64,000 bases of DNA, from NCBI RefSeq assembly GCF_000143085.1, contig NC_014315.1:1115001-1179000 (forward strand), read 5' to 3'. Made by a program: the position numbers and the translations under genes. How positions within the stretch are numbered: the first letter of the stretch is position 1; every line of letters starts with the position of its first letter. This stretch comes from Nitrosococcus watsonii C-113. Lineage in GTDB: Bacteria > Pseudomonadota > Gammaproteobacteria > Nitrosococcales > Nitrosococcaceae. Shown piece after piece: positions 6,368 through 62,536 of this stretch. Under the pieces are notes generated by a model. The model ran no database searches and was not told the DNA's origin. It worked only from the letters and a program-made list of their open reading frames with translations.

Positions 6368-6649
6368 AGTTCTTTAATTTTCTCATTGCTAAGAGCGGCG
6401 TTCTACCGGCGGTAGGCCATGGGCGGCGAGGGTGATGGTGATATCCGGCTGAGGGTTATGCACGCTAACTCGTGGCCAGCCCGAAGCACCCGTTGAAGCG
6501 CGAATTCTCCAGGCGGATGAGATTTTGTAAGAACAAAATTGAAATCATTCATAGCGAAATTCCAAATCTATTTTATATGACTTTGGGAAACGGATAAGTA
6601 TATGGATGCTCAAGAAGAAGATTTCAGTTTATTTGAAATCGTCCTCTTA

Positions 6650-9166: not shown

Positions 9167-9172
9167 CGCTTA

Positions 9173-10129: not shown

Positions 10130-10662
10130 ATACTTTTCGTATACCTCTATTTCAATAATGAAATTATCATTGTTATATCGACTTTCTTAGCTGAATATTG
10201 AAAAAATCGTACTTATTTGTCGAGCAATTATTTTCATGGTAATGGTGAGTATAGGTGATTAAGAGGGGGGCAGTTGGTAGGTGGAGTTGCGAAATCAGCC
10301 CCAAAATCATCTTCTGGATACCTTATCATAAATCTGCCGTGTATGTCCTCGACAACTAAAATAATAGCATTTGGTACTGTCAGTATTATAGATTTGTAAC
10401 CATTGAAGGAATACACAGATATATTCCGATTCCCTCGCGTTCTCGCTAGGCTTGCTTGTTGCAGGCTGGTAGCATCGGTGTGTGGACGGTGCGAAAAAGC
10501 CTATCTTTTCAGAAATTATTCTGGGCATTTATGAGTGGTAACATCTGCGATATTTCGCAAATATGTTTGGTTTGTAGTAATGTCGCCAAAAAACGTAACG
10601 CGCAAAAACCTACGTGAGCGCAGATATTAAAATGCCATTTAAATTTGGGGATATTGCGATTA
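10130..10662. other. Gene-poor gap, about 530 bases
   Basis: Between divergent genes and therefore likely to hold both promoters. Two overlapping minus-strand frames (10234-10416 and 10307-10528) are in different frames, have no recognisable similarity and no good ribosome site; I do not call them genes. I see no RNA gene or strong hairpin. Confidence 0.45.
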
Positions 10663-11001
10663 GTGGCTAAAAAAAGAGTTTATAAAATCAAATTTATTAG
10701 TCAAGGTAAGCTTTACGAGCTTTTTGCCCGAGAGGTGGGGCAAAGCACCATGTACGGTTTTGTTGAGCTTGGCGAAATCATCTTTGGCGAAAAATCGGCG
10801 GTGCTTGTTGATCCTTCCGAGGAGCAATTGAAAGCGGAGTTCGTTGGAGTAAAACGAACTTATATTCCTCTTCATACTATCTTGCGTATTGATGAAGTGG
10901 ACAAAGAGGGAATCAATAAAATTACCGAAGCCACGAATGCCGATAGTAATGTAGCTTTCTTTCCTTCGTCTCTGCATACGCCAGGGAAAGATAAAAAATG
11001 A
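10663..11001 (+). CDS. DUF1820 family protein
   Basis: A 112-residue soluble protein from a GTG start (VAKKRVYKIKFI); a TTG at 10645 is also in frame. It matches the DUF1820 family of gammaproteobacteria: Y-I/V-F-x-G-x-x-(Y/F)-E-(L/M)-(Y/F)-A-R near the start, then a GFVELGEIIFGE segment, VDPSEEQLKAEF, the YIPLHTILRIDEV core, and a short polar tail. The family's role is unknown. It stands alone here. Confidence 0.8.
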   Translation: MAKKRVYKIKFISQGKLYELFAREVGQSTMYGFVELGEIIFGEKSAVLVDPSEEQLKAEFVGVKRTYIPLHTILRIDEVDKEGINKITEATNADSNVAFFPSSLHTPGKDKK

Positions 11002-11325
11002 TGAGTATTTAATCTCCAGACGTTGTTGCAGTTTTTTATAGTAGTGTAGTTCTATGCGGAGATCCTTGGAAGCTTTCTGGGTGGCTGCTATTTTTGCCAG
11101 TAAGTAGCCGAGTTTTTTTCAGACTTGATGACGCCGCCCCCCTTCATTTTCATTTTAATATTTGGTAGGTAGCGCGTAAGGACCCAGGCACTAGCCGGGC
11201 AGGTAAGTAGTAGATAGCGGCTAGCTTCCAATAGGGGTAAGGTGAGGCGGTTTTGCGGCTTGGGACACCATAGACTACACTCTCCTATTCATAAGTCAGT
11301 GGGATGATAGCCTGGGAGAAAAACG
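11002..11325. other. Intergenic gap upstream of egtB
   Basis: About 320 bases. It should contain the egtBD promoter. On the minus strand a short Lys-rich frame continues past the start of the DUF1820 gene, but stops and a frame change make it unconvincing as a gene. Nothing else recognised. Confidence 0.4.
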
Positions 11326-12639
11326 ATGATACCGAGCCAGGATGCAGTGGAGCTAAAAGAAATAGTACCGGATACTAGAGAGGAAGGGTTTATTCTTATG
11401 GGGCGTTACCGCCAGGTACGCCAACTCAGTGAGACGTTATGCCAGCCTTTGGTGGACGAGGACTATGTAATTCAGACTATGCCGGATGTCAGTCCACCCA
11501 AATGGCATTTAGCCCATAGCAGTTGGTTTTTTGAAAACTTTATTTTGATCCCAAATCTCAAGGGTTATCAATTTTTCCATCCGGCCTATGGTTATTTATT
11601 CAACTCTTACTATGAGACCGTAGGTCAGTTTTGGCCTCGCCTGCAACGGGGGCTATTATCCCGTCCCACGGTAGCCGAGGTCTATGCCTATCGCCACCAT
11701 GTGGACAAGAACATGGAGCGCCTGGCAGAGAATTTGGAAGCGGAAAAGTGGCCGGCCGTTGCTCCCTTAATAGAATTAGGCCTTAATCATGAGCAGCAGC
11801 ACCAAGAACTGCTCTTGACTGATCTTAAACATATCTTTGCCACCAACCCTCTCCGTCCCGTCTACCAGGAGTTGGCTACCCCGCAACTCAAGGAAGCAGG
11901 GAAGAATAGCAGCCTCGAATGGTATGACTACAAGGGTGGACTGCATGCCTTGGGATATTCCGGGGAAGGTTTTGCCTACGACAATGAAAGTCCGAATCAC
12001 CTTGTTTACTTGCGCGATTTTCGCCTAGCTTCGCGCCTCGTGACCAATGGGGAATACTTAGCCTTTATGGCGGCAGGAGGATATCGAGAACCCCGCTACT
12101 GGCTCTCTGAGGGTTGGTATACGGTGCGGCAAGAAGGCTGGCAAGCGCCATTGTATTGGGAGCAGCAGGATGAAAGTTGGTGGCACATGACTCTCCATGG
12201 GATGCAACCTATTCAGAAAGAGGTTCCTGTATGCCATCTGAGCTATTATGAAGCCGACGCCTATGCCCGCTGGGCAGGTTATCGATTACCTACGGAGGCT
12301 GAATGGGAAATTGGGGCGCGAGCACTGCCATGCCGGGGGAATTTTTTGGAGTCAGGGGTCTTACAGCCCTTACCCGCGCCTCCAGCAGATCATACCCCGG
12401 TTCAAATGTTTGGGGATGTTTGGGAGTGGACTGGGAGTCCCTATGCACCCTATCCTGGTTATCGGCCTACCGAGGGAGCTATTGGTGAATACAATGGAAA
12501 ATTTATGTGCAATCAAATGGTTTTACGAGGTGGCTCCTGCATCAGCTCATCTGAGCATTTGCGCGCCTCCTATCGCAATTTTTTTCCTCCCCAAGCCCGC
12601 TGGCAATTTACGGGCCTTCGACTAGCGGATGATGTATGA
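11326..12639 (+). CDS. egtB: Ergothioneine sulfoxide synthase EgtB
   Basis: A 437-residue non-heme iron enzyme that joins hercynine to a cysteine-type thiol with O2. The N-terminal DinB-like domain carries the iron ligands: a His in PPKWHLAHSSWFFE and the pair in NHEQQHQELLLTD. The C-terminal half is an FGE-sulfatase-type domain (RLPTEAEWEIGARA, MFGDVWEWTGSPY, LRGGSC). It overlaps egtD by four bases (ATGA). With no egtA or egtC next to it, the thiol donor may be cysteine or gamma-glutamylcysteine; that is inference. Confidence 0.93.
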   Translation: MIPSQDAVELKEIVPDTREEGFILMGRYRQVRQLSETLCQPLVDEDYVIQTMPDVSPPKWHLAHSSWFFENFILIPNLKGYQFFHPAYGYLFNSYYETVGQFWPRLQRGLLSRPTVAEVYAYRHHVDKNMERLAENLEAEKWPAVAPLIELGLNHEQQHQELLLTDLKHIFATNPLRPVYQELATPQLKEAGKNSSLEWYDYKGGLHALGYSGEGFAYDNESPNHLVYLRDFRLASRLVTNGEYLAFMAAGGYREPRYWLSEGWYTVRQEGWQAPLYWEQQDESWWHMTLHGMQPIQKEVPVCHLSYYEADAYARWAGYRLPTEAEWEIGARALPCRGNFLESGVLQPLPAPPADHTPVQMFGDVWEWTGSPYAPYPGYRPTEGAIGEYNGKFMCNQMVLRGGSCISSSEHLRASYRNFFPPQARWQFTGLRLADDV

Positions 12640-13619
12640 ATTCAGTCCTCTCTAGCCAGAAGCAGAAGCGGGGTGAACCTGCTTTCCATGATTATCGGCC
12701 GGCGCAAGCGCGGTTTCGGGAAGATGTTCTCTCTGGATTAGCTCAAAGCCAGCGCCGGATTCCCCCTAAGTATTTTTACGATGAAAAGGGCTCCCGCCTC
12801 TTTGATGCTATCTGCCGATTGCCCGAGTATTATCCTACCCGCACTGAAATCCGGTTACTTAAGCACTATGGGGCGGAAATGGCGGAATATGTAGGCGAGG
12901 GCAGCGTGCTGGTAGAGTTTGGCAGCGGGAGTAGTCTTAAGATCCGCGTCCTTCTCGATGCCTTGGAGCCAGCAGCCTATTTGCCCATTGATATTTCCCG
13001 TGAGCACCTTTTTCAGTCCGCTAAGCAGTTGGCCGGGGACTATCCCGGGGTGGCTATCCATGCTGTCTGCGCGGATTATAGCCAGCCCTTGGGTTTGCCC
13101 GGGGGGTTTGCTGAAAAGCCTAAAGCAGGATTTTTTCCAGGCTCAAGTATCGGCAACTTCGAGCCTGAAGAAGCCCGCCAATTTCTGACGCGGATAGCAG
13201 CCCTGCTAGGGCCGGGGAGTGGTTTGCTCATCGGTGTGGATTTAAAGAAAGAGGCCGCCCTACTCAATGCCGCCTATAATGATAACCAAGGTATTACGGC
13301 GGCTTTTAATTTAAACCTATTGCAGCGCATTAACCGGGAGCTGGAAGGAAATTTTGATCTAGCCGGCTTTGAGCATCACGCTCTTTATAATTCGACTAAG
13401 GGGCGGGTGGAAATGCACTTGGTTAGCCTTAAAGACCAAGCAGTAACGGTGAGTAATCAAACCTTCCAATTCCAGGCGGGAGAAACGCTCCATACGGAGA
13501 ATTCCTATAAATACAATATTGAAGAATTTCAGCAATTGGCAAGTTCGGCAGGGTTCCAGTCACAGCGGGTTTGGACTGATCGGGAGAATTTGTTCAGTGT
13601 CCATTATCTGAGTCTTTAG
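12636..13619 (+). CDS. egtD: L-histidine N-alpha-methyltransferase EgtD
   Basis: A 327-residue SAM-dependent methyltransferase that trimethylates histidine to hercynine, the first step of ergothioneine synthesis. Landmarks are PPKYFYDEKGSRLFDAI, the SAM-binding VEFGSGSSLKIR, LPIDISREHL, FFPGSSIGNFEPEEA and the C-terminal HTENSYKYNIEEF, which contributes to histidine binding. The order egtB-egtD with a four-base overlap predicts one transcript. No egtE-type PLP lyase is seen nearby; that step may be done by an enzyme elsewhere. Confidence 0.94.
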   Translation: MNSVLSSQKQKRGEPAFHDYRPAQARFREDVLSGLAQSQRRIPPKYFYDEKGSRLFDAICRLPEYYPTRTEIRLLKHYGAEMAEYVGEGSVLVEFGSGSSLKIRVLLDALEPAAYLPIDISREHLFQSAKQLAGDYPGVAIHAVCADYSQPLGLPGGFAEKPKAGFFPGSSIGNFEPEEARQFLTRIAALLGPGSGLLIGVDLKKEAALLNAAYNDNQGITAAFNLNLLQRINRELEGNFDLAGFEHHALYNSTKGRVEMHLVSLKDQAVTVSNQTFQFQAGETLHTENSYKYNIEEFQQLASSAGFQSQRVWTDRENLFSVHYLSL

Positions 13620-13735
13620 GCTGGCTAACCTCCAGGACCCTTATAAAACGTTGCAATAGGAATTAGAACCGACGAAAAAAATGACCTTAATTTCATGCTC
13701 CCAGATCCCGCCGCGCTGTACTTGGTTCAAACGAT

Positions 13736-13767
13736 TTGGTTTGTAGGTTTATGTATTATTGTATAAT
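13736..13767 (+). promoter_or_regulatory. Possible sigma-70 promoter for glyA
   Basis: A perfect TATAAT lies at 13762-13767, with TTG-rich candidates for the -35 element (TTTGTA or TTGTAG near 13740-13746, spacing 15-16). It is 40 bases before the glyA ATG. The -35 box is weak, so this is tentative. Confidence 0.4.
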
Positions 13768-13806
13768 CAATGGTTTTATCTAAAAACTGCAGCACTAGGA
13801 CAGTCC

Positions 13807-15060
13807 ATGTATAGCAAAGAGATGCATATTGCCGGTTATGATGAGGAACTTGAGACCGCTCTTAGCAATGAAGCACGGCGGCAAGAGGAACATATCGAAT
13901 TAATTGCTTCGGAGAATTATGTCAGTCCTCGGGTGTTAGAAGCTCAAGGGTCCGTGCTGACTAACAAGTATGCCGAAGGCTATCCTGGCAAGCGTTATTA
14001 TGGGGGCTGCGAGTATGTGGATGTCGCGGAGCGGTTAGCTATCGAACGGGCTAAAATATTGTTCGAGGCTGATTATGCCAATGTCCAACCCCATTCCGGA
14101 TCTCAGGCAAATGCCGCTGCCTGTCTGGCTTTGCTAGCGCCGGGTGATACCCTCATGGGATTGAGCCTTGCCCATGGCGGACATCTCACCCACGGCGCCA
14201 AGGTCAATTTCTCAGGCCAAATATTTAACGCGGTTCAGTTTGGGGTAAATGCAGATACGGGACTTATCGATTACGATGAGGTAGAGCAGCTAGCAAAGGC
14301 GCATCGTCCCAAGCTGATTATCGCCGGCTTTACCGCTTATTCCCGTATAGTTGACTGGCAGCGTTTCCGAGAAATTGCCGATGGAGTAGGCGCCTATTTG
14401 CTAGCGGATATCGCCCATTTGGCTGGAATGATCGCCGCGGGGATTTATCCTAACCCCGTGCAAATCGCCGATGTCACGACTAGCACGACTCATAAAACAT
14501 TACGGGGTCCACGTTCAGGGCTGATTTTGGCTAAAGCCAACCCCGAAATTGAGAAAAAACTCAATTCCAAGGTCTTTCCGGGTATTCAAGGAGGGCCTTT
14601 AATGCATATTGTCGCGGCCAAGGCGGTGGCCTTTAAAGAAGCCATGGAACCGGCGTTTAAGGATTATCAACGGCAAGTGATTCGCAACGCCCAGGCGATG
14701 GCGGAGGCTATTCAGTCTCGGGGCTATAAAATTGTTTCCGGTGGAACTGATAGCCATTTGTTTTTAGTAGATCTCGTCGCCAAGGGATTGACCGGCAAGG
14801 CTGCGGATGCCGCGTTGGGCCGAGCAAATATCACCGTAAATAAAAACACGGTGCCTAACGATCCCCAATCTCCGTTTGTAACCAGCGGTATTCGCATTGG
14901 TAGCCCTGCCATGACCACGCGCGGTTTTAAGGAAGCGGAGATTCGCGAATTGGCGGGATGGGTTTGTGATGTGCTGGACGATATTGAAAATGAGACCATC
15001 ATTGCGGACACCAAGGAGAAAGTATTGGCTCTCTGTGCCCGCTTCCCGGTTTATGGCTAG
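13807..15060 (+). CDS. glyA: Serine hydroxymethyltransferase GlyA
   Basis: A 417-residue PLP enzyme interconverting serine and glycine with transfer of the one-carbon unit to tetrahydrofolate. The PLP lysine is in [14 protein letters not shown]; other landmarks are [12 protein letters not shown], the [11 protein letters not shown] segment and the conserved [11 protein letters not shown] region. The ATG at 13807 ([15 protein letters not shown]) gives the family's usual length; an upstream in-frame start at 13759 would lie over the likely -10 element. nrdR follows after 16 bases, a common gammaproteobacterial order. Confidence 0.96.
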
Positions 15061-15076
15061 AGGCTAAAAAAGGCGG

Positions 15077-15601
15077 ATGCATTGTCCATTCTGCGGGGCA
15101 GAAGACACCAAAGTCACCGACTCCCGTCTAGCAAATGAGGGGGAGGCTATCCGCCGCCGCCGGGCATGCCAAGGCTGTGGCGAGCGTTTTACCACTTATG
15201 AAGCTGCAGAACTGGTTTTGCCCCGATTAATCAAACGCAACGGTACGCGGGAACCCTTTCAGGAAGAAAAGCTTCGGGCCGGTATCCTGCGGGCGGTGGA
15301 AAAACGTCCCATCAGCACGGAGGCGGTGGAGACCGCCATTCGTCGGATTGTCCATCGCTTGCGGGCGAGCGGCGAGCGGGAATTCGACTCCCAAGTGCTT
15401 GGAGAGTGGGTCATGGATGAGTTGCGCCACCTGGATGAGGTGGCTTATGTCCGTTTTGCTTCCGTTTACCGCCGTTTTCAAGACGTTCAAGCCTTTCGGG
15501 AAGAAATTGAACGCTTAGAACAGGCGCTTTCGCTGGAAGAAAGAGCCGCCCAACTCTCTTTATTGCTTGATGGAGAATCTTTAACTAATAAATCGAACTG
15601 A
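15077..15601 (+). CDS. nrdR: Transcriptional repressor NrdR
   Basis: A 174-residue nucleotide-responsive repressor of ribonucleotide reductase genes. The N-terminal zinc ribbon is built from MHCPFCG and CQGCGERF, followed by an ATP-cone domain starting about residue 49 ([15 protein letters not shown]). It is slightly longer than the common 150-160 residues owing to a polar C-terminal tail. No ribonucleotide reductase gene is in the window. It lies 16 bases after glyA and is probably cotranscribed. Confidence 0.95.
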
Positions 15602-15623
15602 ACAAGGCTATTTTCTTCGTTCC

Positions 15624-52497: not shown

Positions 52498-52584
52498 ATT
52501 AGAGGCTCTATAGCAGAGCTTGACTCTTTGATTGACCCTCCTCTCCCTTAATTTGTTATGGATAACAATTTTAATTCATTTATG

Positions 52585-52612
52585 CGGCACAAGGATGTGC
52601 CGTTTATTTTTT
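52585..52612 (+). terminator. Rho-independent terminator
   Basis: CGGCACA at 52585-52591 pairs with TGTGCCG at 52596-52602 around AGGA, followed at once by TTTATTTTTT. This is a strong plus-strand terminator; the only candidate transcript upstream is the small ORF at 52315-52497. Confidence 0.8.
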
Positions 52613-52696
52613 ACCGACAGCATGCAATGAAAAGTTCTAAAACCAAGGGATTGAAGAGAGGCCGGGGCAAGAAATGCCCGCGACCTTGTAGTAGTA

Positions 52697-53377
52697 TTAT
52701 TTAATTTCCAGTAACTCAATATCAAAAATAAGCGTTTCGTTGGGACCAATAAGACGGCCAGCACCCCGCTCACCATAAGCGAGGTCAGAGGGGATGAAGA
52801 CCTTCCATTTAGAACCCACGGGCATTAACTGCAGCGCTTGCTGCCAACCTTTAATAACGCCATTAACCTTAAAGGTAACCGGTTCCCCCCGTTCGTAGGA
52901 ACTGTCGAACACCGTGCCATCCACCAGGGTGCCCCGGTAGTTAACTACGACGGTATCTTCAGCAGCGGGTTTTTTACCTTCGCCTTGTTCAATAATGCGA
53001 TATTGCAACCCATTGGGAAGTTCGACCACTCCTTCCTTTTCTTTGTTGGTTTTTAAGAAATCTTTTCCCGTTGCTTTATTTTTTTCTCCACTTTCGGTTC
53101 TCTTTTGCTGCGCTTGTTGTTGTACGGCGTTCATTGCCGCCTTGGCTTGCTCCGGGGAAAGTCGCGAGGGAGTTTGTTGCAATGCATCTTCAAGGGCAAG
53201 CATAAATGCTTGCTTATCCAATTCGATTCCTTGTTGCTGCATATTTTGACCGAATTGATACCCGATCAGATAACTTAATTTTTTGGCATCTGTTTCGAGT
53301 TCCTCTGCGATGGCCGCGTTTCCGAGGAGGGCTAGTAGGGTAAAGCTAGCAATTAAAAACGTCGCTCCCTTAGGCAT
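52697..53377 (-). CDS. FKBP-type peptidyl-prolyl isomerase, exported
   Basis: A 226-residue FkpA/Mip-type foldase with a signal peptide (FLIASFTLLALLGNAAIA). An N-terminal helical dimerisation domain (LSYLIGYQFGQNMQQQGI, LEDALQQTPSRLSPEQAK) precedes a C-terminal FKBP domain: VVVNYRGTLVDGTVFDSSY, WQQALQLMPVGSKWKVFIPS, LAYGERGAG and LIFDIELLEI. It should assist folding of periplasmic or outer-membrane proteins. A small hairpin with GGGCA/TGCCC arms at 52665-52679 lies just past the stop. No operon partner is evident. Confidence 0.93.
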   Translation of the reverse strand: MPKGATFLIASFTLLALLGNAAIAEELETDAKKLSYLIGYQFGQNMQQQGIELDKQAFMLALEDALQQTPSRLSPEQAKAAMNAVQQQAQQKRTESGEKNKATGKDFLKTNKEKEGVVELPNGLQYRIIEQGEGKKPAAEDTVVVNYRGTLVDGTVFDSSYERGEPVTFKVNGVIKGWQQALQLMPVGSKWKVFIPSDLAYGERGAGRLIGPNETLIFDIELLEIK

Positions 53378-53710
53378 ATGTATTCCTTAAATTTAATAGA
53401 GATTAGTAAGACGGCCCGATAAACATATTTAAAGAGCCAGGATAGCTTCGCCTTCAGGCGAAAAAACCGTCATGATCACATAAGGCTAAATTATAGTTCA
53501 AGATGGTGCCGTTACTATCGCATGTAATAATTTTTGATGATGCTTCCTTTCCATCCCAACGGCGGAGCGGTGGCTACGATTCGTACTTTTACTATTTAGG
53601 CTTCATTCTGGAGCCGCTGCGTGGCGCTCCCATTATTGCTGGAGAAGAGGTAGTGAGTGCAATTTTCATTTTTGTAAATAAAATATATAAAAATCAAATC
53701 CTTATTTATA

Positions 53711-53767
53711 AAAATACGGCAGATGCCGTATTTTAGGACAATAATTATGGCATTTACCATAATTATT
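53711..53767 (+). repeat. Two adjacent perfect inverted repeats
   Basis: AAAATACGGCA at 53711-53721 pairs with TGCCGTATTTT at 53724-53734. Six bases later AATAATTATGG at 53740-53750 pairs with CCATAATTATT at 53757-53767. Both stems are 11 bp and perfect. The first ends in a T-run and could be a terminator; the second is AT-rich. Confidence 0.6.
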
Positions 53768-53878
53768 ATGATCTCCCGTGAATTATTTTTATAAGTAATT
53801 GTGTTTGCAATAAAACTTTTTATGGAATGGTTCTTGCCTTGATACCTCTTGCGCATGTTCTTTTTAAAGATAGTTGAT

Positions 53879-53912
53879 AGCGCTTAATCGGCACCGCCCC
53901 CGATTAAGCGCT
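53879..53912 (+). repeat. 13-bp perfect inverted repeat
   Basis: AGCGCTTAATCGG at 53879-53891 pairs with CCGATTAAGCGCT at 53900-53912 around an 8-base loop. It is followed by an AT-rich tail. It lies 140 bases upstream of the exported-protein gene; a terminator or regulatory structure is possible. Confidence 0.6.
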
Positions 53913-54052
53913 ATTTAAGTTTTATTTTCCATTATTCCTCTCTATTCAGGAAAGATAAAATTAATCTATCATCATTCCAATGAACTAAGAGATGCCTATA
54001 TGCGTCTAATTTTATTGAAAAAATAGATATTATTCACGGCACCAAAGGTGAC

Positions 54053-54802
54053 ATGAGGAGATTATTTGTGTCCAAAAAAATAACGCTTTTTTCCCTACTG
54101 TTGGCTTTATGGGGCGCGAGCTCCCTTGTGCTAGCCCATACCATTATTACAGATCAAGCGACCGAAGGAACCGGCCTGTATACGGGCTTTGATATCACCC
54201 ATGGTTGTGGGTTTGAGGATAAACCTTCTCTTCCAGTCATTGCCCAGTCGGTGGCTTTTCCTACTGGACCTAATTCAGCTGTCACCCGTATGGATACCGG
54301 GGAAGCTATCAGCTTAGGAGATGTGCTCATTGGCGGCATGCATGCAAGCGGCTTAATTAACCCGGCGATCATTCAAAACCGCGATGTTTTTAATGCGACC
54401 GAAGAGTTGAGGGATGAAACGGGTGTGGTGAGAGGCGTTCATTATACCGATGGCGAGCTGCAGGTCGATCTAGATGGCGTACTGCCTTTCCGTGTCTCAG
54501 GAGTTACTTTTGTGGAGGAGTCCTGCGTTACCAAGGTGAGAGCGCGGGTTGCGATAGCCAACTGGTGCCATCACCGGGAAGGCGCACGCCGAGTGGATGT
54601 CTGGATAGCGCGGCTGACTCCAGTATTTAATGACGAGCGGGTAGTTTCTATCGATTTTTGGCCCACGCTAACCATCAACCGGGATTTAACGACTAATCCT
54701 CTTCCGGAAAATTGCGGCGAGGGTTATGAGGTAGCCGTGGAACCTTCGGATGAAGACATCGATCAATATTTGCCAATGCCAGGCTTTATTCCTGGCATCT
54801 AG
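54053..54802 (+). CDS. Exported YcnI/DUF1775-like putative copper protein
   Basis: A 249-residue secreted protein. The signal peptide (LFSLLLALWGASSLVLA) should be cut before HTIITDQ, leaving a mature N-terminal histidine. Then TGFDITHGCGFEDKPSLPV resembles the HGC segment of YcnI/DUF1775 proteins, which bind copper through an N-terminal His. Four cysteines (HGCGF, ESCVTK, ANWCHHRE, ENCGEG) could form two disulfides. The second half is unlike classical YcnI. Start may be ATG 54053 or GTG 54071; GAGGAG sits seven bases before the GTG. Copper binding is inferred. A strong hairpin follows the stop. Confidence 0.7.
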   Translation: MRRLFVSKKITLFSLLLALWGASSLVLAHTIITDQATEGTGLYTGFDITHGCGFEDKPSLPVIAQSVAFPTGPNSAVTRMDTGEAISLGDVLIGGMHASGLINPAIIQNRDVFNATEELRDETGVVRGVHYTDGELQVDLDGVLPFRVSGVTFVEESCVTKVRARVAIANWCHHREGARRVDVWIARLTPVFNDERVVSIDFWPTLTINRDLTTNPLPENCGEGYEVAVEPSDEDIDQYLPMPGFIPGI

Positions 54803-54835
54803 CCGAGGCGAGGAAACGGCTTGTGATAAAATGAA

Positions 54836-54876
54836 AATTACTCACGGGGCGCTTGAACAGCGCCCCGTGAGTAATT
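54836..54876 (+). terminator. 17-bp perfect hairpin after the exported protein gene
   Basis: The 17-base arms at 54836-54852 and 54860-54876 are perfectly complementary (core CTCACGGGGCGC / GCGCCCCGTGAG), with a 7-base loop. No T-run on the plus side beyond the stem's own TT; the minus strand has a T-rich exit. Likely a strong terminator separating this gene from the next. Confidence 0.7.
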
Positions 54877-54909
54877 TCTGATAAGCTTATTGGGCAATGT
54901 GGGAACATC

Positions 54910-55788
54910 ATGAGGGTTGCAGTGATTTTTCGTGCATTTCTTCTTTTAGCAATGCTCCTTTCAAGCCATGCATGGGCTTATGGGGAAGAGTCTTTTGCTG
55001 GTTCTGATCGCGAAAGAATTGAGAGGGCTCCCATGAATCATGGCGTTCTCCATCTGGAAGTAAAGGAAGCACCCTTGGCGCAAATTTTTAAGATCATTGA
55101 AGATCAAGCTGGCGTTCAACTCCATATTCCTTCTCTCTCCCAGAGAAGGGTAACAGCTACTTGCGAGGGCACCGCCCTGGAAGTATTAAAATGCATCCTG
55201 GGCAAGGAAGTGAATCTTGTTTATCGGTACGAAGATAAGCCTTCTGCCAATGATTCAAAGCCTTTGCTTAGGGAAGTATGGGTGCTCAATTCGACCCCAA
55301 GCGAACCGCACCCATTGAATCGTAACCCTGATCAAGCTGTTTGCGAAGCCATGGAACATTTTCCGGATGGGCAACAGCTTCCATTGGAAGAGGAACAAAA
55401 AGCGTTTTTCCATTTGGAGCCAGAGGAGATGGAAAAACTCGTGCTTCTTTCCCGGTCCCCTGATCCAAAGCGGCGAAAAGAAGCCGTGTCCCGCCTTGCC
55501 TTGGTAGCAGAAGACGAGGATGATGGTGGTGTCAGAAGCGTTTTAACGGAGGCCTTGCAAGACCCGAGTCCAGGTGTTAGGGCACAGGCCATTTTTGGAC
55601 TGACCCGGCGGGATGATGCAGAGAGGGACTCGGTGCTACGGGGAGCTTTGCATGACAGCGAGGTGGGGGTGCGGCTGATGGCGGTTAGTAACGCTGGAGA
55701 AAACAGGGCTATACTTGAGATGGCGCTTCATGATGAGGACAGAGTCGTGCGCGATTTGGCTCGCATGAAGCTTGGGAAAATAGAGTAG
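54910..55788 (+). CDS. Exported STN-like / HEAT-repeat protein
   Basis: A 292-residue protein with a signal peptide (IFRAFLLLAMLLSSHAWA). Residues about 45-110 resemble a secretin/TonB short N-terminal (STN) domain: LEVKEAPLAQIFKIIEDQAG then VQLHIPS and ALEVLKCILG. The second half has HEAT-type repeats: RRKEAVSRLALVAEDEDDGG, VLTEALQDPSPGVRAQAIFG, VLRGALHDSEVGVRLMAVSN, and a final MALHDEDRVVRDLARMK. Both domain types mediate protein interactions. Function unknown. The next gene starts 21 bases after its stop with a GAGGAGAGGA ribosome site. Confidence 0.78.
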   Translation: MRVAVIFRAFLLLAMLLSSHAWAYGEESFAGSDRERIERAPMNHGVLHLEVKEAPLAQIFKIIEDQAGVQLHIPSLSQRRVTATCEGTALEVLKCILGKEVNLVYRYEDKPSANDSKPLLREVWVLNSTPSEPHPLNRNPDQAVCEAMEHFPDGQQLPLEEEQKAFFHLEPEEMEKLVLLSRSPDPKRRKEAVSRLALVAEDEDDGGVRSVLTEALQDPSPGVRAQAIFGLTRRDDAERDSVLRGALHDSEVGVRLMAVSNAGENRAILEMALHDEDRVVRDLARMKLGKIE

Positions 55789-55809
55789 TACGAGGAGAGG
55801 AAGGATTTT

Positions 55810-56277
55810 ATGAAAATTACAGCTTTAAGAAATAAATGGATTGTAATGCTGATGATCGCTGGGTTGGGACTCAGTGTTAAGGCGGTAGCCCATGATCAGA
55901 TCGGTACCTTGGGTGTTGAAGGTAATGCCACCGATTATTACTTGGTTACCTGTTCTAGCGATGCGGGTGGGGTCACCGATTATCTTGAGGTTCAAATATA
56001 TGATGCCACTGTGGAGCAGGGTGGTGGTAAGATGAGTGCGGTAATACTAAGAGAACCAGTTGCCAGCACGGCCTCCGATCCCTATAGGGCGGATGAGTTT
56101 CAAAACCACGATAAAAATCCTGGTCCCCCGGCTTTTGTTGGCGGAGGCGACGGGGTTTATAAGGTTATGGTACATAAACTCAAAGATGGTCCCAAAAATT
56201 ATCTCCTGTCGTATCATTGCAAAAGCAGCGTTGGTCTCCATACAGGCACCTCCATTCTTATTTTACAAGATCAGTAA
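55810..56277 (+). CDS. Small exported protein, predicted mature N-terminal histidine
   Basis: A 155-residue protein of no family I recognise. The signal peptide (IVMLMIAGLGLSVKAVA) should be cut before HDQIGTLGVEGN, again placing histidine at the mature N-terminus. The mature part is beta-rich, with two cysteines (LVTCSSDAGG, LSYHCKSSVG) that could form a disulfide, and HNHD-like FQNHDKNPGPPAF and KVMVHKLKDG. The fold could be a small beta-sandwich. It lies 21 bases after the STN-HEAT gene, on the same transcript. Confidence 0.7.
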   Translation: MKITALRNKWIVMLMIAGLGLSVKAVAHDQIGTLGVEGNATDYYLVTCSSDAGGVTDYLEVQIYDATVEQGGGKMSAVILREPVASTASDPYRADEFQNHDKNPGPPAFVGGGDGVYKVMVHKLKDGPKNYLLSYHCKSSVGLHTGTSILILQDQ

Positions 56278-56322
56278 CCGCACCTGTTTTAACTTTTCGA
56301 TAGCCTCCCAAAAAGCCGCTAA

Positions 56323-56354
56323 CCCAGGATTTCTTCTGAGGAAGAAATCCTGGG
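56323..56354 (+). terminator. 14-bp perfect hairpin
   Basis: CCCAGGATTTCTTC at 56323-56336 pairs with GAAGAAATCCTGGG at 56341-56354 around TGAG. It closes the two-gene unit before the TlpA gene. No T-run follows on the plus strand. Confidence 0.6.
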
Positions 56355-56415
56355 GAGGCGCATGGGCATTTAGTTTTGGCAGGATAACACCCGCTTATTT
56401 AAAGTACGCCAGGCC

Positions 56416-56934
56416 ATGAATAAACCTAGATTAGTGTTTTTTTACTTGCTATTAGTCGCTATTTCCGCCGTCCCAACGGCTATGGCTGCCGAGATTAGCC
56501 AACAGGCGCCTGATTGCGTGTTGAAGCCTTTTGAGAAAGCAGGGGAAGTGACTCTCCCGCAATGGCAGGGAAAAGTGGTTTATGTGGATTTCTGGGCTTC
56601 TTGGTGCCCGCCTTGCCTTAAATCGTTTCCTTTTTTAAATGATCTACATCAGCGTTTTAGTGATCAAGGGCTGCATATTGTGGGCATTAATGTGGATGAG
56701 AAATTAAGTGACGCTCAAGACTTTTTAGCGAGAGTGCCGGCCCGTTTTGAGATTGTGGTTGATCCCGATCAGCAATGCGCTCGGTCATTTGATATTCAAG
56801 CCATGCCTTCTTCTTTTTTGATTGACCGAAAGGGCGTGATTCGTCATATCCACTTAGGATTTCGCTCGGGGGATACGCAAGAGCTAGAGGCATGGACGCA
56901 AAAACTTTTACAAGAAGATACGGCTAATCCTTAG
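56416..56934 (+). CDS. TlpA/ResA-family thiol-disulfide oxidoreductase
   Basis: A 172-residue periplasmic thioredoxin-like protein with an uncleaved or cleaved signal (FFYLLLVAISAVPTAMA). The active site is FWASWCPPCLKSFP (C-x-x-C), with the cis-proline in QAMPSSFLIDRKG. Family members reduce protein disulfides, for example in cytochrome c or copper-site maturation. It begins the run TlpA, DUF4266, DUF3570, ApbE, a combination that recurs in other bacteria, suggesting a redox partner for that system. Confidence 0.9.
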   Translation: MNKPRLVFFYLLLVAISAVPTAMAAEISQQAPDCVLKPFEKAGEVTLPQWQGKVVYVDFWASWCPPCLKSFPFLNDLHQRFSDQGLHIVGINVDEKLSDAQDFLARVPARFEIVVDPDQQCARSFDIQAMPSSFLIDRKGVIRHIHLGFRSGDTQELEAWTQKLLQEDTANP

Positions 56935-57060
56935 TTTTATACGTTGTTAACGGTTTAAGTTTCTCCTTCCTTTTTTTAGCACTATTGTTGCTTAATCAAC
57001 GCGCTTGGTGAAGCGCTATAACTCGTTTCGCGCGTGTTAGATATAAGGAGGAATAGAGAT

Positions 57061-57315
57061 ATGATAAAAAATCGCCAGACTTTAATAAGAAGACGAATAA
57101 GAACGATAAACACTTTGTTGTTGCTATTTTTTGTGCTCATAAACCTACCAGGTTGCGCACCGGTAGCACCATGGGAACGGGGTAACCTGGCTAAACCCCA
57201 GATGGTGCCTGACCCCTATCCCATGCAGAGTAGTTTGCGTTCCCATAGTTACCGGGGCCGGGAGGCAGCTATCGGCGGCGCTTCCGCGGAAGGAGGAGGG
57301 TGTGGCTGTTATTAA
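57061..57315 (+). CDS. DUF4266 lipoprotein
   Basis: An 84-residue lipoprotein. The lipobox is LINLPGC, followed by APVAPWERGNLAKPQM and DPYPMQSSLRSH, the DUF4266 signature, and the Gly-rich end ASAEGGGCGCY with a C-x-C. The ATG at 57061 has AAGGAGG nine bases upstream. DUF4266 genes nearly always lie next to DUF3570 genes; the end of this one overlaps the DUF3570 start by 14 bases. The role is unknown; the C-x-C tail could bind metal or form a disulfide. Confidence 0.88.
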   Translation: MIKNRQTLIRRRIRTINTLLLLFFVLINLPGCAPVAPWERGNLAKPQMVPDPYPMQSSLRSHSYRGREAAIGGASAEGGGCGCY

Positions 57316-59851
57316 GCCAAAGCCTAGCGTATCTTCTCCCAAGTGTCGGGCCAGCTCTTCATTAGTGGCATTAACTTCTGCCGCGCTGGCCCTGCCCGGC
57401 TTGATGCCCTTACCGTCCCAGGCCGCCTTCGAGGGGGGAGAATTCGATTTCCAGTATGGCCGTTATCAAGAAGGTGGCGGTACGAAGAGTCAATTCCGGG
57501 ATAAGGATAATGACATTCAGGTGGATAGTCTGCAGGCTTCTGGAGAAATCGACCTCTCTGATCGTTTGACCTTCCGCGCTAATTTTATTCAGGACACTTG
57601 GGTGGGGGCGACCCCCATTACTACGGCTCCAGCGGCAGTTACCAAATTTAATCCCAATGCCGAAACCGGGGCCTCGGCTTTTACTGATCTCAAAGGAGGT
57701 ATTGTTGATTATGACACCCGTACCGGGGAAGGACAGGCAACTATTCCGAATACCTTTGACACGGTAACCACCAATGAAACGGTACATGTCATGGCTGAAG
57801 CCTCGCCGGAAACCCGCAAGCAGGGAGATTTCCGGATGGGTTATGAGTGGGATGAAGCGGCGCTGAACGTGGGGGGCGGAATTTCCCTGGAGGATGACTA
57901 TGATTCTCGCTATTTTAGTCTAGGAGGTCGCTGGGATTTTAATCAGAAACTCACCACCTTGGCAGGAGGCGTGAGCTATACGGATAGTACTATTGATGTT
58001 CGCCGTTTCCGCTTTAGGGCGACTTCGGTTCCGGTTGACGCAAAAGGTGGAATAAATCCAGATTTTCCCGATTGGTCGGTACGGGTCCATGATGGGCGAA
58101 CGGATATTGGAGCGAGCCTGAGCCTGACTCAAGTGCTGGATAAAAACTCGACCTTCCGAGCCAGTTTTGGTTACAACCACAATTCAGGTTTTCTCTCCAA
58201 CCCGTATAAGGAAGTCACTTTTCTAACCCCCCTGGATATCCCAGGGAAAGCATGGCTATTTACCCGTTACGATAAACGGCCTGAAGAGCGGAATCAGTTC
58301 ACCTGGAGCGCGGGCTATACCCGTTATCTTGCGGGGCTAGATGCTGGTTTGCATTTCAATTACAGTTTTTTTCATGATGACTGGGGGATCAACGCCCATA
58401 CCTTTGACGCTTCCTGGGGGCAGCCTGTGGGAGGAGGGTGGATCATTACCCCTCGGGTCAGATATTACAGTCAAAGTGCCGCGGACTTCTATAGTCCTTT
58501 CTTTATTGCCAGCCAGGAGCCCCTTTCATTAGCGGAAATTTTACCTAATCAAAGCCAATTGCCTACCCCGGAGCATTTTTCCAGTGATCATCGGTTATCT
58601 GCTTTTGGGGCTCTGAGCGGTGGGGTGACAGTGAGCAAGCAGTTTGCCAAAGGGGTCACCTTGGAGGCAGGATTTGAATACTATACCCACGCTAGTTCTC
58701 TGAAGCTGGGAGGGGGAGGCGTGGGTGATTTTGCCGATTTCAATTATTTTCTGGCTAACGCGCTGCTGAAAGTGGATTTATCCGCTCTCACTTATTCTGG
58801 AGGAGGGCATGATCATGCCAAGGGACATGAGGGGCACAGTGATTTTGCCCCTGCCGGGGTGATGTTTAGCCATATGCTGGGGACAGCCGGCGAATTTATG
58901 GTGGGATACCGTTATCAGTATAGCCGCCAGGGCGGCGATATGCTCCACGGTACCCAGACTGTTGATGACCTTACCATTGTCAATAATGCCTGCCGTAACA
59001 GACCCTGCCAGCTAAACTCGGCGGACATGCATATGCATATGCATATGCTTCATCTCATGTATGCGCCTACCGATTGGCTGAATCTAATGCTAATGCCCAT
59101 GTTTATGGATATGAATATGGATTTACGGAAGCTTGAAGGGGCACCACCCATTGATCCCGAGGCCGTGGGCGGACACTTCCATGCGGCGGATAGCGGAGGG
59201 CACGAGACCGGTGGCGTGGGTGATACCCAGTTATTTGCGCTGGTTAAATTATTTGCGTCGCCCCAACACCATCTCCATCTGGGATTGGGCATCAGCGCGC
59301 CGACGGGGGATGTGGGTATTAAGGTTGAAGGTCAAGAAATTAACGAGAGCAGCCCGGATTTTGGCAAGCCTTTATTCATTCACTATGGCATGCAGTTGGG
59401 TAGCGGTACCTGGGATTTATTGCCTAATTTAACTTATACGGGTTCGATGGATCGCTGGTCTTGGGGCGGCCAACTGAGTGGTACCGTTCGCCTGGAAAGC
59501 GAAAACTCTTCCGGTTTTGCCTTTGGTGATATTTTTCAGGCTACCGCTTGGGGAGGGTATAGCCTGTTCAAATGGCTGTCTGCCTCGGTCCGGGGCATTT
59601 ATACTACTCAGGGAGCTATTAGGAACCAATTCAACGGGCCAGACCCCCAGTCGGCGCCGGTGGATTTTCCAGAGAACTATGGCGGGCGTTTCTGGGATGT
59701 GGGTTTTGGCCTCAATGCTTCTACCTTAGGAGGCGGTTTGAAAGGCAATCGGCTAAGTATCGAGTGGGTGCAGCCGGTCAGGAACGATGTCAATGGCTTC
59801 CAATTGGAGCGGAAAGGGTCGCTTTTTATCACTTGGGGCCTAGGATTTTAA
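57302..59851 (+). CDS. DUF3570 protein with Met/His-rich tract
   Basis: An 849-residue exported protein from a GTG with a GGAGGAGG site. After the signal peptide, strand-rich sequence runs to a C-terminal end in Phe (LFITWGLGF), as in outer-membrane barrels. Residues 98-104 (57593-57613) read DTWVGAT, matching the D-x-x-(S/T)-G-A-(T/S) pattern to which ApbE links FMN except for V before G. Near residue 576 a tract MHMHMHMLHLMYAPTDWLN is followed by LMLMPMFMDMNMDL, and histidines occur in GGGHDHAKGHEGHS and GGHFHAADSGGHE. This suggests metal, perhaps copper, binding. Unusually long for DUF3570; a Phenol_MetA_deg-like barrel may be fused at the C-terminus. Confidence 0.85.
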   Translation: MAVIKPKPSVSSPKCRASSSLVALTSAALALPGLMPLPSQAAFEGGEFDFQYGRYQEGGGTKSQFRDKDNDIQVDSLQASGEIDLSDRLTFRANFIQDTWVGATPITTAPAAVTKFNPNAETGASAFTDLKGGIVDYDTRTGEGQATIPNTFDTVTTNETVHVMAEASPETRKQGDFRMGYEWDEAALNVGGGISLEDDYDSRYFSLGGRWDFNQKLTTLAGGVSYTDSTIDVRRFRFRATSVPVDAKGGINPDFPDWSVRVHDGRTDIGASLSLTQVLDKNSTFRASFGYNHNSGFLSNPYKEVTFLTPLDIPGKAWLFTRYDKRPEERNQFTWSAGYTRYLAGLDAGLHFNYSFFHDDWGINAHTFDASWGQPVGGGWIITPRVRYYSQSAADFYSPFFIASQEPLSLAEILPNQSQLPTPEHFSSDHRLSAFGALSGGVTVSKQFAKGVTLEAGFEYYTHASSLKLGGGGVGDFADFNYFLANALLKVDLSALTYSGGGHDHAKGHEGHSDFAPAGVMFSHMLGTAGEFMVGYRYQYSRQGGDMLHGTQTVDDLTIVNNACRNRPCQLNSADMHMHMHMLHLMYAPTDWLNLMLMPMFMDMNMDLRKLEGAPPIDPEAVGGHFHAADSGGHETGGVGDTQLFALVKLFASPQHHLHLGLGISAPTGDVGIKVEGQEINESSPDFGKPLFIHYGMQLGSGTWDLLPNLTYTGSMDRWSWGGQLSGTVRLESENSSGFAFGDIFQATAWGGYSLFKWLSASVRGIYTTQGAIRNQFNGPDPQSAPVDFPENYGGRFWDVGFGLNASTLGGGLKGNRLSIEWVQPVRNDVNGFQLERKGSLFITWGLGF
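59027..59047 (+). repeat. Hexanucleotide tandem repeat (atgcat) in DUF3570 gene
   Basis: Three and a half copies of atgcat encode alternating Met-His inside the Met/His-rich tract. Because the unit is six bases, copy-number change would alter the number of Met-His pairs without a frameshift. Confidence 0.7.
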
Positions 59852-59917
59852 TCGAGCATAGGGTATTTCTCTAGCTAGGGCTTGGGTTTTACCGCGAGGG
59901 ATAAGCGAGGGAATAGC

Positions 59918-60886
59918 ATGAAGCTTTACCAGGAAGCTTTCAAGGCAATGGGTACGCCCTGCGAAATTCAGCTCTATGCCAAAACTAAGGTCCAAGCTCA
60001 ACGGGCCGCGAAACTTATCATCGCCGATGTGCGTCGGCTGGAAGACCGCTATTCCCGCTACCGTACCGACAGTTTTCTCTCCGAAATCAATCGGGTGGCA
60101 ATGGTAGGTGGGCGTATCTCGGTGGACAAGGAAACGGAAGGGCTGCTCAATTATGCAGCCACTTGCTATAGGCAAAGTAAAGGGTTATTTGATATTACTT
60201 CCGGTATTTTGCGGCGCGCTTGGAATTTTAAATCAGGTGTGTTGCCGAGTAAGGTGCAAGTACAGAAATTGCTTGACAAAATTGGTTGGGAAAAATTGCG
60301 CTGGGTACCGCCGGTACTAGAATTTTCCATCGCTGGAATGGAAATTGATTTTGGAGGTGTTGTCAAGGAATATGCCGCTGACCGGGCGGCTTCCCTGAGT
60401 TTACAGGCAGGCGTTCGGCGAGGGCTAGTAAACTTAGGTGGTGATATCAAAGTGATTGGTCCCCGTCCAGGCGGTGAGCCTTGGCGGATTGGTATCCGTC
60501 ATCCTGGCCATAAAGAAGCGGCGATGGGAATGCTGCTGCTAAATGAGGGCGCGATTGCTAGTAGTGGTGACTATGAGCGCTGCATTGTATTAGATGGCGT
60601 TCGTTATGGCCATGTTCTTAATCCTAGAACCGGTTGGCCGGTGCGGCACTTGGCATCGGTGACTGTGATCAGTGATTTATGCGTGGTAGCGGGAAGCGCT
60701 TCTACTATTGCCATGCTAAAAGAAGCTAATGGTCCAGCTTGGTTGCAGCATTTGGGATTACCTCATTTCTGGGTGGATATGGAGGGTGAAACTGGTGGTT
60801 CCCTAGAGAAGGGTTTCATTGAGGCTACTGCCATGGTTCAAAACAGCGAGCGCCAGGCGGCAATCACGGTACTCAATGAGCATTAA
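59918..60886 (+). CDS. apbE: FAD:protein FMN transferase ApbE
   Basis: A 322-residue ApbE-type flavin transferase. Landmarks: FKAMGTPCEIQLYA, RLEDRYSRYRTDSFLSEIN, GLFDITSGILRRAW, EIDFGGVVKEYAADRA, RRGLVNLGGDIKVIG, SSGDYERC, YGHVLNPRTG and the metal-site region near the C-terminus (VVAGSASTIAM). I see no signal peptide or lipobox from the ATG at 59918, nor in the short in-frame extension to 59882, although most ApbE proteins are exported. It would have to act in the cytoplasm or use another route. It follows the DUF3570 gene by 66 bases and has no NqrC/RnfG substrate nearby. Confidence 0.92.
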   Translation: MKLYQEAFKAMGTPCEIQLYAKTKVQAQRAAKLIIADVRRLEDRYSRYRTDSFLSEINRVAMVGGRISVDKETEGLLNYAATCYRQSKGLFDITSGILRRAWNFKSGVLPSKVQVQKLLDKIGWEKLRWVPPVLEFSIAGMEIDFGGVVKEYAADRAASLSLQAGVRRGLVNLGGDIKVIGPRPGGEPWRIGIRHPGHKEAAMGMLLLNEGAIASSGDYERCIVLDGVRYGHVLNPRTGWPVRHLASVTVISDLCVVAGSASTIAMLKEANGPAWLQHLGLPHFWVDMEGETGGSLEKGFIEATAMVQNSERQAAITVLNEH

Positions 60887-60982
60887 TAAAGGCGTCACGC
60901 TTTTTGTTTGGTTTTTCATGAAAACTGAATGCTGCGGCTTATTTCCACTTAAATCCATTTTGTGGTTAAGGGTAAAGACAAT

Positions 60983-62536
60983 ATGAATAACCTCTCCCTA
61001 AATTTCCCGGGGCGAGCGGGGCTCTACATTACCGTATTTTTGACTGGCGCCGCGGTCATGATCATAGAGCTTTTGGGAACGCGCATGATTGCCCCTTTTT
61101 ATGGGGCGAGTCTTTACGTCTGGTCATCCCTGATCTCGGTCACCATGATAGCCTTGTCTTTGGGTTACTTTATTGGCGGTCGTTGGGCTGATCGGGCCAA
61201 ACGGACCGGCCTATCGTTGATTATTGCACTCGCAGCCTTACTTACTCTTCTTATTCCCTGGTTAACCCGCCCAGTGCTGTTGGCAACCGATCCGTTGGGC
61301 TTGCGGACAGGGGCTTTGGTGAGTGCGCTGGCGCTTTTTTCGCCAAGCTTGACCTTTTTGGGAATGGTGGGGCCTTTCGCCATTAGGTTATCGACCGTCA
61401 ATCTGGCGGGGGTTGGCGCCAGTGCCGGTTCAATTTATGGAGCAAGCACTCTCGGTAGTGTCGTGGGAACATTATTTCTAGGATTTTATTTATTTCCTGT
61501 TATGGGTTCCCGTGAGATTTTTATCGCACTTGGTCTCGCTTTATTCCTGCTGAGCGTGGTTGTGGCCTTTTATGAAAGAAAACGCTTGAAGCTTGCTTCA
61601 ACCTTACTCCCCGTTGCCTTCTTGGCATCGATAGGAATTGGGTTATTGCCCCAAATTGCGGGTGCTGGCCACGCAGGTTCTAGTAAGGAATCTTTTCAAA
61701 TACAATTCGAGCGCGAAAGCTTATATGGTTGGGTGCGGGTCATTGATCAACCGGCGCAGGATCTCCGCTTGCTTACCGCTGATGCTTCCACCATTGGAGC
61801 GGCTAGTATCAGCCATGGTCAAAACCGTCTTGCCTATCAGCATATCGTGCCGCTCATTCCAGCTTTAGCTCCTCCCATGAAGCGCGCTTTGCTCATTGGT
61901 CAGGGCGCCGGTCATATGGCTATGGCTTTGGAAGATCGTTATGGGATTGTCACCGATACACTGGAAATAGATCCAGCCGTTGCAGAAGCGGCAACCCATT
62001 ATTTTGACTTTAGTCCCACGGGTCAAGTCATCGTTGGAGATGCTCGTTATGAAATTCGGCGTTTAAAAGGCCCTTATGATTTAATTATCCATGATTGTTT
62101 TACCGGGGGTGTGGAGCCCGTCCATTTATTAACTATTGAGACTTTGACGCAGCTACGCTCCTTGCTTTCCGAGCAAGGTGTACTCGCCCTTAATTTTGTA
62201 GCTTTCTCCGAGAATGGGAAGAATATTGCATTGGCTTCCGTTGCTAAAACTTTGTCGCGTGCTTTTCCTCATCAAATGGTTTTTGTTTCCGAGCCCGGAA
62301 AGGATTTTAATGATTTTATTTTTCTTGCCGCTAATCGCCCTATTGACCTGGATGCCAAGATGCTAACGTTTGCGCAAGCTTCTTGGTTAAGGCAGCGCCT
62401 TATGACAGTGGATAAAACCCAAGGAATCCTGCTAACGGATGATTTTAATCCACTTGAGTATTTGCAGGCCCGTAAAGCGAAACACTACAGAAATATTTTA
62501 GTCAATTGGTTAGGCACGGATCTTTTAGTGCGGTGA
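60983..62536 (+). CDS. Membrane-fused spermidine-synthase-like protein
   Basis: A 517-residue protein. The N-terminal part has about six to eight membrane helices with an MFS-like pattern (TVFLTGAAVMIIELLGTRMI, LISVTMIALSLGYFIGGRWA). The C-terminal 290 residues are a SpeE-type methyltransferase fold: RALLIGQGAGHMAMALED, LEIDPAVAEAA, VIVGDARYEIRRLKGPYDLI and HDCFTG. Fused MFS/spermidine synthases are common and mostly uncharacterised; polyamine synthesis is not assured because key residues for decarboxylated SAM were not checked. ATG 60983 is preferred to GTG 60962. Confidence 0.85.
   Translation: MNNLSLNFPGRAGLYITVFLTGAAVMIIELLGTRMIAPFYGASLYVWSSLISVTMIALSLGYFIGGRWADRAKRTGLSLIIALAALLTLLIPWLTRPVLLATDPLGLRTGALVSALALFSPSLTFLGMVGPFAIRLSTVNLAGVGASAGSIYGASTLGSVVGTLFLGFYLFPVMGSREIFIALGLALFLLSVVVAFYERKRLKLASTLLPVAFLASIGIGLLPQIAGAGHAGSSKESFQIQFERESLYGWVRVIDQPAQDLRLLTADASTIGAASISHGQNRLAYQHIVPLIPALAPPMKRALLIGQGAGHMAMALEDRYGIVTDTLEIDPAVAEAATHYFDFSPTGQVIVGDARYEIRRLKGPYDLIIHDCFTGGVEPVHLLTIETLTQLRSLLSEQGVLALNFVAFSENGKNIALASVAKTLSRAFPHQMVFVSEPGKDFNDFIFLAANRPIDLDAKMLTFAQASWLRQRLMTVDKTQGILLTDDFNPLEYLQARKAKHYRNILVNWLGTDLLVR

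Follow-up and report, generated by a model that had tools for sequence, protein, structure and literature searches.

A predicted double-barrel DUF3570 protein in Nitrosococcus watsonii and a candidate copper-handling module of bacteria with copper membrane monooxygenases

What is the role of a gene cluster in Nitrosococcus watsonii C-113 that places a flavin transferase and a thioredoxin next to two proteins with a predicted mature N-terminal His and a Met/His-rich, barrel-like protein? The cluster (Table 1) lies in the window, the whole 64,000-nucleotide stretch of contig NC_014315.1 that was analyzed, in a genome of 3.37 Mb (3 contigs) that carries one AmoA/PmoA gene by PF02461 search. To our knowledge, how copper crosses the outer membrane and by which route it reaches the monooxygenases is open for most methane and ammonia oxidizers. 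A first-pass annotation, made from the DNA letters alone, had described the locus as seven consecutive plus-strand genes with products almost all exported or lipidated. All seven ORFs were found at their positions, and most of the products do look exported or lipidated, the ApbE protein being without an obvious signal peptide.

Table 1. Features of the cluster and its surroundings (positions in the window; a dot marks features given without a strand)
Feature	Position	Strand	Remarks
Cluster A-B-C-D-E-F-G	54053-60886	+	seven ORFs, from translations and Pfam
Gene A	54053..54802	+	exported, predicted mature N-terminal His at H29, HGC motif, Trp and four Cys invariant
Long hairpin between A and B	54834..54878	.	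19-bp exact stem
Gene B	54910..55788	+	HEAT-repeat protein, STN-like N-terminal part
Gene C	55810..56277	+	small, exported, predicted mature N-terminal His, conserved Cys pair
Hairpin between C and D	56323..56354	.	14-bp stem
Gene D	56416..56934	+	TlpA-like thioredoxin, WCPPC motif, Redoxin 7.6e-26
Gene E	57061..57315	+	DUF4266, lipobox-like LPGC, C-terminal CGCY
Gene F	57302..59851	+	DUF3570 barrel fused with second barrel (predicted)
F residues 43-493, DUF3570 predicted barrel	57428..58780	+	16-18 strands, DSSP elements counted by hand
F residues 101-104, flavinylation-like site 1 (VGAT)	57602..57613	+	motif alignment
F residues 122-125, flavinylation-like site 2 (TGAS)	57665..57676	+	motif alignment
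F residues 519-849, second predicted barrel	58856..59848	+	~12 strands, resembles COG4313 channel 4rl8
F residues 576-606, Met/His tract	59027..59119	+	on two neighbouring strands
Gene G	59918..60886	+	ApbE flavin transferase, no obvious signal peptide
Gene H	60962..62536	+	MFS/spermidine-synthase-like neighbour, downstream of apbE

Pfam bore out the thioredoxin assignment of D, the DUF4266 assignment of E (2.3e-19) and that of G as a flavin transferase (ApbE, 9.8e-72). With F, which matches DUF3570 over residues 23-483 (3.6e-134), these genes form the TlpA-DUF4266-DUF3570-ApbE core, correctly said to recur in other bacteria, as the same set has been published (PMC8238504). The statement that the core has no agreed function holds in part only: DUF3570 is a published substrate of ApbE, and its physiological role is still given as uncertain in the available text of PMC8238504. 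According to the same text (Meheust 2021, eLife), ApbE attaches flavin to DUF3570, covalent flavin was shown for the DUF3570 of Chlorobium luteolum, and iron assimilation was suggested for 25 clusters with a VIT1 transporter. As far as these flavinylation clusters are described there, the window resembles them in having all four core families together, a DUF4266 with C-terminal CxC and a DUF3570 with flavinylation-like sites, and differs in the second barrel of F and the added genes A, B, and C. The ends of DUF4266 differ as well, 73 of the 76 DUF4266 ORFs of loci with the F fusion ending in CGCY and 8/8 of those in ordinary DUF3570 regions in CGCN. The core is therefore already known, and what is new is a variant with a fused second barrel and genes A, B, and C. 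Our literature search on DUF3570, DUF4266, ApbE in methanotrophs or Nitrosomonas, and Nitrosococcus flavinylation uncovered no description of the fusion or of its guild.

The ApbE start is more likely ATG 59918 than TTG 59882, judging by homology. The window protein starts 10 residues ahead of the MGTPC motif and has no hydrophobic leader, leaders being judged here by a look at hydrophobicity and not by a signal-peptide predictor. Among 52 ApbE ORFs of fusion clusters, 37 start 0-20 residues ahead of MG(T/S) and show no clear hydrophobic leader. Another 14 are extended further in frame, by 26-76 residues, and one (L107) has MGC in place of MG(T/S). The longer extensions, including those of L070 and L105, where one stretch is hydrophobic (Kyte-Doolittle mean 1.9), are taken as start-choice artefacts. 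The six ApbEs found beside ordinary DUF3570 likewise start without an obvious leader. Because ApbE has no obvious signal peptide, flavin may be attached to F before export, which agrees with the flavinylation in E. coli of a leaderless, mostly insoluble DUF3570, so far as it is reported in the text of PMC8238504.

Gene F had been read as a Met/His-rich, barrel-like protein. The Met/His tract is present and a barrel is predicted, the correction being that there are two barrels and not one. In the AlphaFold2 model (59 sequences, mean pLDDT 79.3, pTM 0.76), the DUF3570 part is predicted to end near residue 493 and to be followed by the second barrel. Residues 43-493 of this model match outer-membrane barrels (BamA, Z 21.0; CymA, 18.6), and residues 519-849 match the COG4313 channel 4rl8 (Z 23.4, rmsd 2.8, 253 aligned of 268) and FapF (5o65, Z 22.6); the count of ~12 strands for the second barrel takes the last long element as two. 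No convincing Pfam family was found for the last ~360 residues, and 3/3 C-terminal halves matched nothing at E<=10. While its predicted fold is like those of the COG4313 channel (PDB 4rl8) and FapF (PDB 5o65), the second barrel of F differs from the COG4313 channel in sitting fused behind another barrel, in its richness in Met and His and in having no Pfam match. A print survey of outer-membrane proteins with several barrels reportedly exists. Frames for the second barrel alone were seen at G544:C55:14258-15271 (390 aa) and G388:C387:8853-9791 (313 aa), perhaps stand-alone genes or fragments, and at G458:C1:341372-344007 the fusion falls into two frames, one of 284 aa and one of 706 aa, and may be a broken gene.

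The alignment of 59 fusion proteins uncovered strong conservation of Met, with nine residues (Met 533, 580, 582, 586, 596, 598, 604, 606, and 697) present in 59/59 rows and Met 521, 576, and 578 in 56, 55, and 58 of them. On two neighbouring strands, Met alternates with residues of the opposite face that are in most cases Leu, Tyr, Phe, or His. This alternation, a pattern read from the sequence alone and formed by a residue that is itself hydrophobic, suggests that the Met of the second barrel face the lumen. The flavinylation-like sites are less strictly kept: [ST]GA[ST] is exact at site 1 in 44/59 rows (SGAT in 43/59) and at site 2 in 31/59, with both sites exact in 23/59, only site 1 in 21/59, only site 2 in 8/59 and neither in 7/59. 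Both sites end in S or T in 59/59 rows.

The claim that gene A is YcnI-like is carried by its predicted fold, and the Pfam DUF1775 profile does not match it. The AlphaFold2 model (37 sequences, pLDDT 85.5) was matched in VIA to the YcnI structures 8um6, 7me6, and 7mek (Z 11.9, 11.7, and 11.3; 124-125 aligned residues; rmsd 2.3-3.0), followed by 3esm (Z 10.3), itself a match to a DUF1775 profile, and by cohesins below 8. Foldseek alone placed 3esm at the top with no YcnI among the 50 best rows. The fold alignment begins with His29 against His27 of YcnI, and His29, His50, Cys52, Cys158, Cys172, Trp184, and Cys221 are found in 37/37 aligned A proteins, so that the His and Trp of the YcnI copper site may each have a counterpart in all 37, the Trp position being judged by conservation and not by residue-by-residue superposition. 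The N-terminal His is present in all 45 of 47 A ORFs that have a letter at that position.

Sequence comparison was less telling. Pfam DUF1775 (PF07987) matched 0/37 A proteins at E<=1 and nothing in the window genome at E<=10; the whole of Pfam gave nothing convincing for the window A and nothing at E<=10 for two of its relatives. A PDB sequence search with profiles of A, C, and F also gave nothing convincing. Profile comparison of A with DUF1775 was weak (probability 35%, E 4e-4) and pairs the N-terminal His and HGC, residues that, with the Trp, also occur in 16/16 proteobacterial DUF1775 proteins. In the available text of PMC8424229, the ligand of B. subtilis YcnI is Glu50, and members without the Glu ligand are mostly proteobacterial; we infer that the HGC His of A takes the place of this Glu. 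Compared with YcnI/DUF1775 as described in that text, A is thus alike in predicted fold (Z 11.9, 124 residues, rmsd 2.3), may share the mature N-terminal His and Trp of the copper site, and has the HGC of the 16 proteobacterial DUF1775 proteins; it differs in having no Pfam DUF1775 match, in its greater length and weak sequence likeness, and probably in the Glu ligand. The predicted fold of A is YcnI-like, and a shared fold is not a function. Loci in which no A was found carry other exported-looking proteins with a predicted mature N-terminal His (L084:5809-7560, L100:5944-6690, and L076:525-1307), some of the proteins of this kind having weak PEP-CTERM-like ends.

Gene C, the second N-His protein, had nothing convincing in Pfam, and two of its relatives had nothing at E<=10. 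The N-terminal His was found by motif in 69/89 C ORFs and is missing in 20/89; Cys48 is present in 87/89 and Cys137 in 89/89, and in an alignment of 43 rows His136 and His144 hardly vary. A heuristic signal-peptide screen called an N-terminal His in 35/37 A, 57/77 C, 11/55 TlpA, and 26/262 other ORFs of the same loci, a background that is overstated because the screen prefers His cuts. For gene B, described earlier as a HEAT/STN protein, the HEAT part was recovered (HEAT_2, 2.6e-13); STN went undetected by Pfam in the window protein and in 14 relatives scanned alongside, and the N-terminus reads like STN by eye.

That the upstream genes go with the core, which the first-pass annotation had only inferred, is confirmed by conserved gene neighborhoods. 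When 63 genomes of the window's order were searched, A, C, and F each turned up in one identical set of 6, which is the whole of the window's family with its 3 genera, while the other 57 genomes had none of them; the three occur together in 6/6 and 0/57, respectively. The order A-B-C-D-E-F-G is kept in all 5 other family genomes, with A or C doubled in some, and the same order was found in other genera among the named-genome loci. In G102, a member of another order, the cluster reads A, A, C, D, E, F, G, without B. For G356, every gap between A and the gene that follows G measures 9-70 bases, except for one of 163. This recurrence of gene order is more than chance, and since the neighborhood is conserved across the family and most of the set is also found in methanotrophs and Nitrosomonas, the upstream genes belong to the core. 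A comparison of DUF3570 neighborhoods, suggested in the first-pass annotation, agrees, as the N-His genes do sit near DUF3570 in its fused form.

The hairpins had been considered as an operon break. Between A and B, a hairpin of at least 8 bp occurs in 4 genomes of the genus, in the 3 others in shorter form (8-11 bp), and none of at least 8 bp was found in the two other genera of the family. In a relative, this gap is only 12 bases and hairpin-free; the hairpin therefore does not separate unrelated genes. No hairpin of at least 8 bp was found between C and D in the 5 other family genomes. Rfam at gathering level gave no match in 52500-61500, and the number of sigma-70-like promoter matches (13) was close to the mean of shuffled sequence (10.3). 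The DUF4266 and DUF3570 genes (E and F) overlap by 14 bases (57302-57315). Relatives of gene H were found on either strand in the fetched stretch of 21/76 named loci, and the gene is missing beside the cluster in 2 of 5 other family genomes; its membership in the cluster is uncertain.

To place the fusion among DUF3570 proteins, a phylum sample of 299 genomes was used. DUF3570 was present in 20, and long frames were found only in the window genome (894 aa) and G102 (912 aa), the rest being 389-467 aa. From the 18 non-fusion genomes, the 8 best-scoring regions were taken as the ordinary set; D, E, and F are present there, with ApbE in 6/8, whereas A, B, C, and the second barrel gave no match at E<=10 in any of the 8. 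Named genomes were scanned with the fusion alignment, and of 93 relatives 80 were retained, corresponding to 76 loci; because both search peptides were taken from fusion proteins, the species list is biased towards fusions. Where at least 6 kb of upstream sequence was at hand (39 loci), C (36), E (35), and D (32) were the most frequent companions, followed by A (23) and B (21), and ApbE was found in 40/62 loci with at least 1.5 kb downstream. Some Methylococcaceae loci hold two to four F genes, and arrays of three to four fusion genes were seen at L087, L089, L090, and L113 (Methyloglobulus and other Methylococcaceae MAGs).

The 76 loci are mostly from named methanotrophs or Nitrosomonas. The search for PF02461 (PmoA/AmoA) covered 50 carrier genomes, with a match in 41; the 26 of 76 loci beyond it are in part further loci of the same genomes. 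In the phylum sample, PF02461 occurs in only 3/299 genomes, the window genome included, and both long-fusion genomes are among the three (Fisher 6.7e-5, or 0.0067 when the window's genome is left out). None of the non-fusion DUF3570 genomes had it (0/18 in the phylum sample, and 0/8). The 9/50 carriers without PF02461 are those of L134 (G481) and L125 (G480) and seven MAGs named methanotroph or Nitrosomonas, which may be incomplete. The F of L134 groups with Nitrosomonas in the tree. The genome of L125 is also present as G375, the contig coordinates of the fusion agreeing. At 99% completeness, this genome carries two full fusions but lacks PF02461, and in the tree its F falls within a clade of Methylococcaceae. 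G375 is a real exception to the guild association. Its region L125:4435-21504 holds two fusions with N-His genes and a TonB-dependent receptor nearby. G388 (96% complete) has the second-barrel frame only and no PF02461. In the other direction, G374, of the genus of G102, has AmoA and no fusion, and G187 has AmoA/PmoA and no DUF3570 match; in the family of G102, 70/120 genomes and 2 of 4 genera have matches, genus g230 being among the unmatched. Given the exceptions G375, G374, and G187, the enzyme does not depend on the module, and the module is not strictly limited to bacteria with the enzyme.

Physical linkage to the monooxygenase was observed once. On L103, a contig of a proteobacterial MAG, the stretch 4492-15614 carries D and F, a multicopper oxidase (8621-10291), pmoC, pmoA, and pmoB (11132-14025), CopC, and a second TlpA-like gene, with F, the oxidase, pmoCAB, and CopC within ~11 kb and the cluster ~4 kb from pmoCAB. 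Among the 83 stretches, Pmo subunits were found in that of L103 only, making this linkage 1/76 loci. In a tree of 33 F proteins, chosen mainly from loci with a fuller cluster, a single split of ammonia oxidizers from methanotrophs was rejected (p-AU 0.0145, an optimistic value because the AU test was set after the first tree had been seen). The Nitrosomonas F proteins group with that of L072, a PF02461-bearing gammaproteobacterium, and the F of G102 groups with named Nitrosomonas. The rejected split agrees with what is expected if the module moved between the methanotroph and ammonia-oxidizer guilds.

Taken together, these data led us to a model, to which we give a probability of about one half, where the cluster is a copper-handling outer-membrane redox module of copper-monooxygenase bacteria, fed by thiols and flavins. 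Electrons from periplasmic thiols would travel by way of TlpA (D) and then the CxC lipoprotein (E) to flavins carried by the DUF3570 barrel of F, where Cu(II) would be reduced to Cu(I); Cu(I) would be bound in, or pass through, the Met/His-rich second barrel, and the exported N-His proteins A and C would take up, carry or buffer periplasmic copper. Copper handling is indirectly supported by the YcnI-like predicted fold of A with its ligand-type residues, by the guild distribution and by the position of the L103 cluster near pmoCAB. We infer that the metal is copper, which way electrons and copper move, which partners make contact, that the window's F carries flavin and that its Met face the lumen. 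Import, as opposed to defence or electron export, is less certain still. Its fullest form is a tentative one: a guild-specific copper import in which the flavin barrel, flavinylated in the cytoplasm, would reduce Cu(II), the Met-lined barrel would admit Cu(I) and His-brace carriers would feed the methane or ammonia monooxygenase, the whole being passed sideways between guilds. The proposed job and host guild are shared with known copper proteins of methanotrophs and nitrifiers (CorA, CopC/CopD, and PcoB/CopB), from which the cluster differs in gene names and layouts, a distinction drawn from the available descriptions and not from sequences.

The cluster could instead export electrons with no metal transport, the flavin barrel passing envelope electrons outside or keeping outer-membrane thiols and flavins reduced and the N-His proteins having another role. 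The published core is a thiol/flavin electron-transfer system of uncertain function in the available text of PMC8238504, and in the 8/8 ordinary DUF3570 regions it stands without A, C, and the second barrel. This reading, which we consider rather improbable, offers no reason why a Met/His barrel and a YcnI-like protein should occur together, and in the copper-monooxygenase guild. Copper defence or storage, in which the module would sequester or expel copper released from the large monooxygenase membranes, draws on the same copper-type parts as import. Methanotrophs and ammonia oxidizers hold much copper, and the multicopper oxidase and CopC of L103 belong to families used in resistance too. 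We hold defence to be somewhat less probable than electron export. No efflux pump was recognized among the neighbour families recurring in at least 6 of 83 stretches, with Pfam coverage of the neighbours less than exhaustive. Improbable above all is a maturation role, where the thiol parts and N-His proteins would assist the folding or assembly of F, or of other exported proteins, and would not transport copper directly: TlpA, the HEAT-repeat protein B with its STN-like part and FKBP-type isomerases near the cluster would fit, but FkpA-like genes are found in only 15/83 stretches, 6 of these in the window's own family.

The copper-handling model gives DUF3570 flavinylation a testable role, and a defined, deletable gene set is available in cultured strains such as Methylotuvimicrobium buryatense 5G. 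In this strain (locus L096), two divergent A genes are present and C is missing. In the window, the FkpA-like isomerase gene (52697-53377) is divergent from the cluster, and 9 of the stretches with its relatives lie outside the window's family.
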